From Albula goreensis (Eukaryota > Chordata > Actinopteri > Albuliformes > Albulidae): a DNA stretch of 64,000 nucleotides. Below the pieces are notes generated by a model. It was not told where the DNA came from. It made no database searches and saw only the letters and a list, made by a program, of their open reading frames with translations. Below are positions 45,289-64,000 of this stretch, piece by piece. Position numbers and translations under genes: made by a program. Where the stretch lies: assembly GCA_022829145.1 (NCBI GenBank), contig CM040765.1, forward strand, positions 18,449,292 through 18,513,291, read 5' to 3'. Within the stretch, counting starts at the first letter, position 1; each line of letters begins with the position of its first letter.

Positions 45289-48200
45289 ATGAGTACCGAC
45301 GCCGAAATGGCCATTTATGGCAAGGCGGCCATATACCTGAGGAAGCCTGAGAAGGAGAGAATCGAGGCACAGAGCAGACCTTTTGATGCCAAGACTGCCT
45401 GCTTCGTGGCTGATGTTAAGGAGCTGTACCTTAAAGGTACAATCCTCAGCAAAGAGGGTGGCAAAGTCACCGTCAAAGTCATCGATACTGAGGAAGTAAG
45501 CATTTCACCCATTACAGAAATAATAATCAATAAACAGTTTTTGTGTGCTTCACTACATATTCAATGTTTATGCTGGAATCTGTGATCTGATGTGATGACT
45601 GCATGTTTTTCAGACTAAAACAGTGAAGGAGGACGATGTCACCCCAATGAACCCCCCCAAGTTTGATAAAATTGAGGACATGGCCATGATGACTCACCTC
45701 AATGAAGCCTCTGTGCTGTACAATCTCAAAGAGCGTTATGCAGCATGGATGATCTACGTAAGACATATAACCCCGTTGAAAATGAACTAATTCTCCTTGT
45801 TACAAAGAACTTGAAAGTCAACTCCCATCTTCATCCTCCCTGTTTCAGACCTACTCTGGGCTGTTCTGTGCCACTGTAAACCCCTACAAGTGGCTCCCAG
45901 TGTACGACGCAGAAGTTGTGGCGGCTTACAGAGGCAAAAAGCGCATGGAGGCCCCACCACACATCTTCTCTGTCTCAGACAACGCCTACCAGTTCATGCT
46001 CACTGGTAAAGTCATACTTACAAAAGCCGCAGATTTGTGGTATTTTTTAGATTTCACTCACTGAATTTATGGATATATACTGACACTTATTCCACTTTTT
46101 TTTTTACAGATAGGGAAAACCAGTCTGTCCTGATTACGTAAGTACTAACATTAACTTTTACTCATAGAAATGTAAAACTTCATTTCTTGGACCATGAAAA
46201 AAAAGTCTTCACCTGGCTCCTCTGCTCTTCCCTTTATTCTAACCCAGCGGAGAATCTGGTGCTGGAAAGACTGTCAACACCAAACGTGTCATCCAGTACT
46301 TTGCGACAATCGCAGTAGCTGGAGATAAGAAGAAGGATGCCCAACCAAGCAAAATGCAGGTGAGGAACTGTGGGCAATTTTGAGTGGAAGAGATAACATT
46401 GAAAATTATGGGGTGAAAGGAAAATAATTGGACATAATATTCTGAACAAAACTGCACACATCCTCACATCCTCTGTAGGGATCACTGGAGGATCAAATCA
46501 TTGCAGCCAACCCCCTGCTGGAGGCTTATGGTAATGCCAAGACCGTGAGGAATGACAACTCCTCCCGCTTTGTAAGTCTACAAGAAAACCATTTTAATTA
46601 ACAACTACCTTTTACCTTTTAAGAAAACCCATTAATTTACAACCTTTTAAACTATGCTAATAACACTGGACTGTTCCCAACAGGGTAAATTCATCAGAAT
46701 TCACTTCGGCACATCAGGAAAGCTGGCCAGTGCTGACATTGAGACTTGTGAGTTGCTTTAAAATAAATCATCTTTTATATTATATATTTCTTTGTGAATA
46801 CCAACTGATTTCTTATTACCTCTTTGAACAGATCTGCTGGAGAAGTCCAGAGTGACATTCCAGCTTCCAGATGAGAGAGGCTACCACATCTTCTATCAGA
46901 TGATGACCAACCACAAGCCTGAGCTGATTGGTGAGATTAAAGACTTCCAAGCTCACTTTAAATAAAATTCCTCAAAACCATTGAAAAGTTACTGAACTAA
47001 AATCAATTTTTACCTCAAACAGAAATGACGCTCATCACAACCAACCCCTACGATTTCCCCATGTGCAGCCAGGGCCAGATCACTGTGGCCAGCATTGATG
47101 ACAAAGAGGAGCTGGTGGCCACAGATGTGAGTGATACACAGATACATGTGACTAAGACTCACTTGTAACAACTACTATCTTCATTCTCTAATGTGAACCC
47201 ATCTTTGCCATCTAGACTGCCATTGACATCTTGGGCTTCACTGCTGAGGAGAAAATGGGCATCTACAAGCTGACTGGTGCTGTCCTCCATCACGGTAACA
47301 TGAAGTTCAAGCAGAAGCAGCGTGAGGAGCAGGCTGAACCTGATGGCACAGAGGGTGAGTGCATAATATCTTTGCTAACACTTGTCCATGTAACACAATT
47401 TGAAACATTTTACTATGAAAATCATCAAGTCACCACAATGGGTGGAAGAATATAGACCAGAACCTTACTTTTGCATTCTGTTTCCAGAGGCTGACAAAAT
47501 TGGTTACCTGCTGGGCTTGAACTCAGCTGACATGCTGAAGGCTCTCTGCTATCCCAGAGTGAAGGTCGGCAATGAGTTTGTCACCAAGGGACAGACTGTG
47601 CCACAGGTAAAATATTTACATTGTACAATTATTATTTCTAAACATCAGAAATTTAACTGATTGTTAAAAATTACATGAGATACAATTCCATGCACAACAC
47701 TATTTTGACAGGTGAACAATTCCGTGAGCGCTCTGGCTAAATCCATCTATGAGAGGATGTTCTTGTGGATGGTCATCCGCATCAACCAGATGCTGGACAC
47801 CAAGCAGCCCAGACAGTTCTTCATTGGTGTGCTGGACATTGCTGGTTTTGAAATTTTTGATGTAAGTATGTGTGACAAAGCCCTACATTCACTTATTAAC
47901 ACACTGACATCATGTCTTGTAACCAAAATGATTATTTCCTCTCAAAGTTCAACAGCATGGAACAGCTGTGCATCAACTTCACCAATGAGAAACTGCAGCA
48001 GTTCTTCAACCACCACATGTTTGTGCTGGAACAAGAGGAGTACAAGAAAGAAGGAATTCAGTGGGAGTTCATTGACTTCGGTATGGACTTGGCTGCCTGC
48101 ATTGAGCTTATTGAGAAGGTAAGGGAAAGGTCTACTTTGAAAAAAAAAAAAAGTGTGAAATATCAAAAATAGCTCTTCGATTCACACATATTCATGACTT

Positions 48201-61133: not shown

Positions 61134-64000
61134 ATGAGTACCGACGCCGAAATGGCCGTTTACGGCAAGGCGGCCATATACCTGAGGAAGCCTGAGAAGG
61201 AGAGAATCGAGGCACAGAGCAGACCTTTTGATGCCAAGACTGCCTGCTTCGTGGCTGATGTTAAGGAACTGTACCTTAAAGGTACAATCATGAGCAAAGA
61301 GGGTGGCAAAGTCACCGTCAAAGTCAAAGACACTGAGGAAGTAAGCATTTCACCCATTACAGAAATGTTAACCAATTTAAGTGTGCTAGACAATGTAGTC
61401 CATGTTTATGCTGAACTCTGTGATCTGATGTGATGACTTGATTTTTTACAGACTAGAACAGTGAAGGAGGACGATGTCACCCCAATGAACCCCCCCAAGT
61501 TCGATAAAATTGAGGACATGGCCATGATGACTCACCTCAATGAAGCCTCTGTGCTGTACAATCTCAAAGAGCGTTATGCAGCATGGATGATCTACGTAAG
61601 ACATATAACCCCGTTGAAAATGAACTAATTCTCCTTGTTAAAAAGAATTGAAAGTCACTTCCCATCTTCATCCTCCCTGTTTCAGACCTACTCTGGGCTG
61701 TTCTGTGCCACTGTAAACCCCTACAAGTGGCTCCCAGTGTACGACGCAGAAGTTGTGGCGGCTTACAGAGGCAAAAAGCGCATGGAGGCCCCACCCCACA
61801 TCTTCTCTGTCTCTGACAACGCCTACCAGTTCATGCTCACTGGTAAAGTCATACTTACAAAGGGCTGTATTTGTGTTTCTACTGCATATTTCACTAAGTG
61901 TAGTTAAGAAGATGTATTCATATACATTTTCTTCTTGCAGATAGAGAAAACCAGTCTGTCCTGATTACGTAAGTATTACCAATATTATTATCCATCTTGT
62001 CTTGGACTCTGAGAAAAGAACTTGACCTTATTGTCCTGCTGTTTCTTTCCCTGCCCCCAGCGGAGAATCTGGTGCTGGAAAGACTGTGAACACCAAGCGT
62101 GTCATCCAGTACTTTGCGACAATCGCAGTGTCTGGAGAAAAAAGAAGGAAGCACCAACTTCAGGCAAAATGCAGGTGAGGAACTGTACCCTTGTTTTGCT
62201 GAATTACAGTAAAAAAGATAAATGAATGCTATAACTAAACATTGCAGAGAATAAGTCCTGGAAATTCACAAAGTTTGCACACTTCTACACCCTCTGTAGG
62301 GATCGCTGGAGGATCAAATCATTGCAGCTAACCCCCTGCTGGAGGCTTATGGTAATGCCAAGACCGTGAGGAATGACAACTCCTCCCGCTTTGTAAGTCT
62401 GACAAGAAAACATAGATTGACAGAAAACCCTGCATCTGTTGACAATTTAATTTTGCTAATAACACTGGATTGTTCCCAACAGGGTAAATTCATCAGAATT
62501 CACTTCAGCACATCAGGAAAGCTGGCCAGTGCTGACATTGAGACTTGTGAGTTGCTTTAAAATAAATCATCTTTTATATTATATATTTCTTTGTGAATAC
62601 CAACTGATTTCTTATTAATTCTTTGAACAGATCTGCTGGAGAAGTCCAGAGTGACATTCCAGCTTCCAGATGAGAGAGGCTACCACATCTTCTATCAGAT
62701 GATGACCAACCACAAGCCTGAGCTGATTGGTGAGATTAAAGACTTCCAAGTTCACTTTAAATAAAATTCCTCAAAACCATTGAAAAGTTACTGAACTAAA
62801 ATCAATTTTTACCTCTAACAGAAATGACGCTCATCACAACCAACCCCTACGACTTCCCCATGTGCAGCCAGGGCCAGATCACTGTGGCCAGCATTGATGA
62901 CAAAGAGGAGCTGGTGGCAACAGATGTGAGTGATACACAGATGCACATGTGACTAAGACTCACTTGTAACAACTACTATCTTCAGTCTCTAATGTGAACC
63001 CATCTTTGCCATCTAGACTGCCATTGACATCTTGGGCTTCACCGCTGAGGAGAAAATGGGCATCTACAAGCTGACTGGTGCTGTCCTCCATCACGGTAAC
63101 ATGAAGTTCAAGCAGAAGCAGCGTGAGGAGCAGGCTGAACCTGATGGCACAGAGGGTGAGTACATCTGTTTTGTAAGACTCCTCCATATCACATACTCAA
63201 AGTTTTACTGCAAAAAACAGGATATGAGTTCAAAGGGTTGGAGAATACAAAATCTAAAATACAAATTGTTCCTTGCATTAAGTTTGTTGTTCATTGTTTT
63301 GTACTGTATTGACCCCTAAGATGTGTGCTAAGTACTGTCTTTTTGACCCCAGTCCCTGAAAACTGCCATGTTCTGTTTTCAGTCGCTGACAAAATTGGTT
63401 ACCTGCTGGGCTTGAACTCAGCTGACATGCTGAAGGCTTTCTGCTATCCCAGAGTGAAGGTCGGCAATGAGTTTGTCACCAAGGGACAGACTGTGCCACA
63501 GGTAAAATATTTACATTGTACAATTATATTTCTAAACATCGAAAATTATTTAATTGTTAAAAATAAATTGATTGTTAAAAATTCATGGCAATACAAATCC
63601 ATGCACAATACTATTTTCACAGGTGAACAATTCCGTGAGCGCTCTGGCTAAATCCATCTATGAGAGGATGTTCTTGTGGATGGTCATCCGTATCAACCAG
63701 ATGCTGGACACCAAGCAGCCCAGACAGTTCTTCATTGGTGTGCTGGACATTGCTGGTTTTGAAATTTTTGATGTAAGTATGTGTGACAAAGCCCTACATT
63801 TGTTTATTGACACACTGACATCATGACTTGTAACCAAAATTATTATTTCCTCTCAAAGTTCAACAGCATGGAACAGCTGTGCATCAACTTCACCAATGAG
63901 AAACTGCAACAGTTCTTCAACCACCACATGTTTGTGCTGGAACAAGAGGAGTACAAGAAAGAGGGAATTCAGTGGGAGTTCATTGACTTCGGTATGGACT
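61134..64000 (+). CDS. Fast skeletal muscle myosin heavy chain, 5' part (MYH-B), cut by window end
   Basis: Thirteen coding exons are visible: 61134-61340, 61452-61595, 61686-61842, 61941-61968, 62061-62174, 62300-62392, 62483-62546, 62631-62729, 62822-62925, 63017-63155, 63383-63501, 63623-63772, 63859-64000 (partial, 142 of an expected 171 bases). They are in the same order and phase as MYH-A and code for nearly the same motor head: N-terminal SH3-like part, [15 protein letters not shown] and DIAGFEIF are all intact. Differences include HFSTSGK for HFGTSGK after switch I, and V for E at the 63383 exon junction (V is the usual residue). Exon 62061-62174 is 114 bases where 112 or 115 keeps the frame; a six-A run in the loop 1 region appears one A short. 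It follows MYH-A head to tail, as in other fish fast-MYH clusters. Confidence 0.93.

Follow-up and report, generated by a model that had tools for sequence, protein, structure and literature searches.

Copies of the myosin heavy chain in fish influence muscle speed and temperature response, which makes it of interest how such copies remain similar and nevertheless preserve useful differences. In the fish Albula goreensis, two of these genes, MYH-A and MYH-B, are found in a stretch of 64,000 nucleotides (C25:18449292-18513291; hereafter, the window), where their introns form a mosaic of near-identical and strongly diverged segments. This mosaic is best explained by repeated short interlocus gene conversion (probability of about 0.88), which is probably anchored in the exons. 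The initial annotation of the window had already suggested conversion. This proposal is supported by permutation tests, by similar introns that are without a counterpart in the other myosin genes compared and, above all, by an independent gene cluster, C14, where different introns group different copies, including those of an inverted pair.

Intron mosaic of MYH-A and MYH-B

MYH-A (45273..56000) and the 5' part of MYH-B that falls within the window (61118..64000) form a direct repeat with a spacing of about 16 kb (here and below, window coordinates refer to the plus strand unless indicated otherwise, and E and I stand for exon and intron). Self-comparison of the window gives a single long duplicate, formed by A 45273-48089 and B 61118-64000. 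The two genes become alike from the 3' splice site that precedes the exon with the start codon (A 45273, B 61118); in the 600 bases upstream of that site, their alignment is no better than that of shuffled sequence. The 11 exons listed in the initial annotation all have AG/GT borders in MYH-A and a bordered counterpart in MYH-B. Exons 1 to 13 are 94 to 100% identical over the aligned bases, with 17 synonymous differences at 313.7 sites.

The description of six introns as almost identical holds for I2, I7, I8, and I9 (97 to 99% of aligned bases) and, at 93%, for I12, but only partly for I11. Intron 2 (45758..45848; B 61596-61685) has 87/90 identical bases. Introns 7 to 9, together with exons 8 and 9, form a near-identical block (46748..47215; B 62547-63016) with identities of 82/84, 90/92, and 88/89 aligned bases, respectively, and local scores far above those of shuffled sequences. 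Intron 12 (47862..47947; B 63773-63858) is similar, with 80/86 identical bases. Intron 11 (47607..47711; B 63502-63622) is mixed: its ends are similar (97/101), and a difference in length in the middle accounts for 24 gap bases. Mixed similarity is also seen in I1, which was absent from the earlier list.

Between these segments, the introns described as clearly different (I4, I5, I6, and I10) are indeed hardly alignable, with sharp switches from patch to patch. A divergent island extends from the end of intron 3 to intron 6 (46025..46683; B about 61862-62482) around exon 5, the putative loop-1 exon. The first 19 bases of I3, the intron after 45849-46005, are identical in both genes, and the sequence beyond them is divergent, just as annotated. 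With splice signals trimmed, I5 is on a par with shuffled sequence (p = 0.40), and I4, I6, and I10 retain weak residual homology (p = 0.004 to 0.006 against shuffles). Intron 10 (47355..47487) is 94 bases longer in MYH-B (63156-63382). Exons E4 and E6, both within the island, are 96% and 98% identical. These comparisons use local scores against shuffles, because global identity with permissive gaps failed to separate diverged introns from shuffled ones. The pair thus displays sharp-edged, near-identical patches within older divergence.

MYH-B extends past the window to the equivalent of position 68566, which adds 4.6 kb, and then runs in mid-exon into 500 N. The mosaic continues along this extra sequence: I14, I16, I18, I19, and I22 have z scores below 5, and I13, I17, I20, and I23 have z scores above 13. 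In intron 28, 91/95 bases are identical. Exon 20 of MYH-A (49951..50206) has a single synonymous difference from MYH-B in 48 sites, despite an unalignable preceding intron (I19; z = 0.1).

In the alignment of A introns 1 to 27 (3008 columns, 1381 of which differ, with gaps scored as differences), the longest identical run spans 109 columns; no run exceeds 23 columns in any of 2000 permutations. Divergence also varies more among 25-column windows (variance of 0.080) than in any permutation (0.014 or less), by a factor of more than five. Heterogeneity so far beyond permutation excludes a single duplication age, in agreement with the initial annotation. Even divergence along the introns, which that annotation had set as grounds for refutation, is not what the alignment and the permutation test show.

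Intron patchwork in the C14 cluster

The C14 cluster consists of genes a, b, and c on the minus strand and gene d on the plus strand, so that c and d are inverted relative to each other. Introns were called similar at z above 8 and a local identity of at least 0.80. Among the 37 introns of genes a, c, and d, I7, I8, I17, and I22 are common to a and c only, and I1 and I12 to c and d only. Introns I5, I21, I24, and I32 are common to all three, 15 are common to none, and for the remaining 12 at least one comparison was intermediate. For gene b, the comparison is limited to introns 15 to 35; in the trio of a, b, and c, one intron (I16) is common to a and b only. Copy relationships among the C14 genes conflict along their length, which is at odds with both a single order of duplication and constraint.

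Unequal crossing-over between tandem copies, or a few events producing chimeric genes, might also generate a mosaic, and the direct-repeat arrangement of MYH-A and MYH-B makes crossovers possible. However, the many alternations over 7.8 kb would each require a separate crossover. Further, the same pattern is present in C14 c/d, which unequal crossing-over cannot explain because these genes are inverted. Crossing-over was rejected as the main cause on the strength of this inverted pair and appears very improbable. The introns shared by c and d fit conversion without crossing-over in this inverted pair.

Comparison with myosin genes on other chromosomes

MYH-A and MYH-B differ at 72/748 synonymous sites in exons 1 to 25 (about 10%), with 20/380 in exons 1 to 14 and 52/367 in exons 15 to 25. 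Between MYH-A and myosin genes on other chromosomes, the counts are 283/702 (C14c), 281/672 (C14d), 336/674 (C22c), and 394/668 (C8a), i.e., 40 to 59%. These counts cover exons with at least 68% identity, codons for the same amino acid, and, within exon 5, bases 1 to 60. With such divergence, general synonymous constraint is rejected.

A constraint-based explanation would assume one duplication age, with the similar introns held alike by selection on regulatory or splicing elements. Strong local constraint may well exist in this family: exons E6 (46479-46571), E28 (52758-52954), and E35 (55109-55279) of MYH-A are 96 to 98% identical to the C14 copies, compared to lower values for most other exons. 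No compared intron of MYH-A reaches a z score of 3.5 against C14c, C22c, or C8a. Searches with 27 A and 24 B introns of 26 fetched stretches, some of them overlapping, around other myosin genes yielded just one match, of 33 bases (E = 0.001), which appears under two overlapping stretches. The introns identical between MYH-A and MYH-B have no recognizable counterpart in the paralogs examined and, in the absence of a clear match near other myosin genes, are not generally preserved sequences. In C14, different pairs preserve different introns. Within the window, no match to an Rfam family attains the gathering score, so that no known RNA element supports intron constraint. Given the unmatched introns and the divergence of the paralogs, the patches cannot be put down to constraint, either on introns or on synonymous sites in general; they include neutral sites that are unconstrained in the other genes compared. 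Selection on the introns is hardly credible as the source of the mosaic.

A variant compatible with interlocus conversion is that the divergent islands were imported from a third, more diverged myosin copy. Synonymous divergence is higher in E4 to E6 (5/44) than in the rest of E1 to E14 (15/336), as summed counts without a statistical test, and donors could have been among any copies missing from the assembly at the 500 N. However, none of the 26 fetched stretches contains a convincing match to an A or B intron, and a search of the genome (931.9 Mb in 208 contigs) with B intron 10 returned only itself at E of 0.001 or less. In addition, I3, I4, and I6 retain homology between MYH-A and MYH-B. 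A third donor is therefore unlikely.

Exons as probable anchors of conversion

Synonymous divergence of exons with 0, 1, and 2 diverged flanking introns is 0.033, 0.060, and 0.073 in A/B and 0.028, 0.050, and 0.145 in c/d; it also rises in a/c, a/d, and b/c. In c/d, the only one of six pairs tested with a significant effect, synonymous differences are concentrated near exon ends (36/268 in the outermost 15 bases versus 71/1236 elsewhere; p = 3.7e-5). Pairs between clusters have a flat profile (0.294, 0.286, 0.295, and 0.275). The flank and edge analyses, including the profile between clusters, cover exons other than 1, 5, 15, 26, and 31 that are of equal and expected length and at least 70% identical. 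Shared introns tend to be the shorter ones, with a median of 89 (n = 43) versus 151 for diverged introns (n = 108; p = 1e-6, with seven nonindependent pairs pooled), and this difference is significant in a/c and a/d taken singly. The pooled analysis, which includes pair b/d in addition to those tested singly, covers exons of equal and expected length other than 5, 15, 26, and 31. These trends in length, flanks, and edges fit tracts that originate in exons and for which heterology is an obstacle.

In the available part of one source, conversion tracts average 200 to 300 bases and the yeast minimal efficient processing segment is near 200 bases, with room left for shorter substrates (PMC3924818). 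Both sizes are comparable in magnitude to the combined length of an exon and a short intron.

Under exon-anchored conversion, strand invasion would usually begin in the exons, which always stay similar, and a tract would extend across introns that are short and have kept their homology. An intron diverged in both length and sequence would hinder further conversion and drift on, and the exons flanking it could still be converted separately. The expected outcome is exons that stay alike and introns that form a mosaic, with some pieces converted recently and others left unconverted for a long time. In its strongest form, conversion might proceed exon by exon, with diverged introns acting as firewalls, so that even an exon of about 120 bases between unalignable introns would be homogenized. 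This stronger version is tentative. In C14 c/d, exon 17, which lies between two unalignable introns, differs at 0/23 synonymous sites. Phrase searches for exon-restricted conversion turned up nothing in a literature sample with few subscription papers, which is not proof of absence.

Exon 5 of MYH-A (46248..46359, 112 nucleotides; B 62061-62174, 114 nucleotides) encodes the P-loop and, in its 3' part, what we take to be surface loop 1, presumably with a role in myosin kinetics. It lies inside the unconverted island 46025-46683, and MYH-A and MYH-B differ mainly in its loop-1 part. It is possible that selection tolerates or favors this difference. If diverged introns do act as firewalls, their length and divergence would set which parts of the protein, such as loop 1, escape homogenization and specialize.

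Assembly quality and weight of the evidence

The 500 N in MYH-B (window equivalent 68567-69066; C25:18517858-18518357) may be an assembly gap. A search with the MYH-A tail, in which the best candidates were scored, did not find the remainder of MYH-B; on C25, these candidates are MYH-A itself and the last 79 bases of MYH-B before the N. A part of MYH-B, or further copies, may be missing here. In C14, another 500 N (C14:2302438-2302937) follows directly after exon 1 of gene b, and exons 2 to 14 of that gene were not found in the fetched stretch. Exons 25, 26, 30, 31, and 33 of MYH-A (51355-54771) are 1 or 2 bases shorter than in most C14 copies, which breaks the frame. The frame is similarly broken in the short exons 31 of C14 a, 37 of c, and 26 and 34 of d, and in the 114-base exon 5 of MYH-B (62061-62174) relative to exon 6. 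Small losses in several copies suggest unpolished sequence; decay of the copies is possible.

These features are what an assembly artefact might leave, if mixed reads from paralogous copies made the exons and some introns look alike. The initial annotation had likewise allowed for one copy being an assembly chimera, and the N stretches, the lack of a second close tail among the best candidates, and the frame-breaking deletions give this idea some room. Nevertheless, the similar introns carry 1 to 7% substitutions, unlike collapsed copies, and the pair-specific introns of the three C14 genes are not easily obtained by read mixing. Errors occurring at random in reads would be expected to add differences, not to remove them, and the small frame-breaking losses do not create shared introns. 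An artefact is accordingly improbable.

Several observations weigh against exon-anchored conversion. As only two copies, MYH-A and MYH-B by themselves reveal neither its direction nor a conflict of trees, and their intron divergence is a continuum without two clean classes. Tandem neighbors are not always homogenized: the pair C22 b/c has no shared intron (highest z of 3.0 in 20 introns) and differs at 248/530 synonymous sites, which also indicates that the method does not find sharing everywhere. (The pair counts exclude the models of C22a, C22d, C23, C3, C16, C7, and C8b.) The exon-edge effect is not found in A/B (8/187 versus 40/730; p = 0.59, odds ratio of 0.77, i.e., reversed and nonsignificant); in a/c, a/d, b/c, and a/b, it has the same direction as in c/d but is nonsignificant in each pair alone. 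The difference in intron length is nonsignificant in A/B (p = 0.12), c/d, b/c, and a/b, and synonymous divergence does not rise with diverged flanks in a/b (0.037 and 0.030). Constraint, perhaps synonymous, may help keep E6, E28, and E35 alike. Finally, the quality of the assembly is doubtful.

Gene models and other features of the window

MYH-A is modeled with 38 coding exons, from E1 (45289-45495) to E38 (55869-56000), on the basis of splice borders, open reading frames, and the exon sizes expected for such genes, after adjustment; its final C-terminal exon or exons are outside this model. As modeled, exon 19 has a GC donor instead of GT (49764-49765). In MYH-B, the window holds E1 (61134-61340) to E13 (from 63859). 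According to the available part of one study, exon sizes of MYH genes are conserved and vary only in set places, and the size of the exon taken here to encode loop 1 varies across vertebrates (PMC3869912). The MYH genes described here combine a myosin head domain with these conserved exon sizes, apart from the frame-breaking exons. MYH-A has a match to the Pfam Myosin_head family at 48210-48554 (3e-31); the matches of exon 2 to Myosin_head and of exon 21 to Myosin_tail_1 are both under the curated cutoffs. Given their clustered arrangement, these genes are presumably of the fast skeletal type.

Apart from the MYH duplicate, self-matches in the window are mostly local repeat arrays. Minisatellite-like tandem arrays are found 5' of the myosin genes at 6275-6622, 8213-8758, 15816-16167, 21159-21457, and 25061-25839, the longest having a unit of about 47 bases, as judged by self-match spacing. 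An open reading frame on the minus strand (24138-24686) matches the LIF/OSM and CNTF cytokine families.

Relation to known systems

A 1992 paper, known by its title from the references of PMC6558913, reportedly described conversion between skeletal myosin heavy chain genes. Conversion in this family has thus been in print since 1992, and MYH-A and MYH-B are a well-resolved further example. They differ from that case in coming from a fish, in having many patches discernible intron by intron, and in being accompanied by an inverted pair. The A. goreensis clusters are a good natural test of how introns limit conversion: conversion borders can be read for each intron in two separate clusters, one of which contains the inverted pair, and C22 b/c, with no shared introns, provides the contrast.

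Fish MYH copies that group within species have been discussed in a 2025 preprint, the available part of which cites McGuigan et al. 2004, by its title a study of how sarcomeric MYH genes of fish evolved, for extensive conversion as one reading (PMC12776057). As far as that citation conveys the earlier work, the new elements here are single patches, their borders, and copy-discordant introns in one genome. The available part of the same preprint describes a stickleback MYH3C cluster with variable copy number, for which independent expansion is weighed against extensive conversion (PMC12776057). Both systems consist of tandem fast MYH genes. However, the stickleback cluster, as described there, contains recent duplications of 17.6 kb, whereas the A. 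goreensis genes are old copies with short patches.

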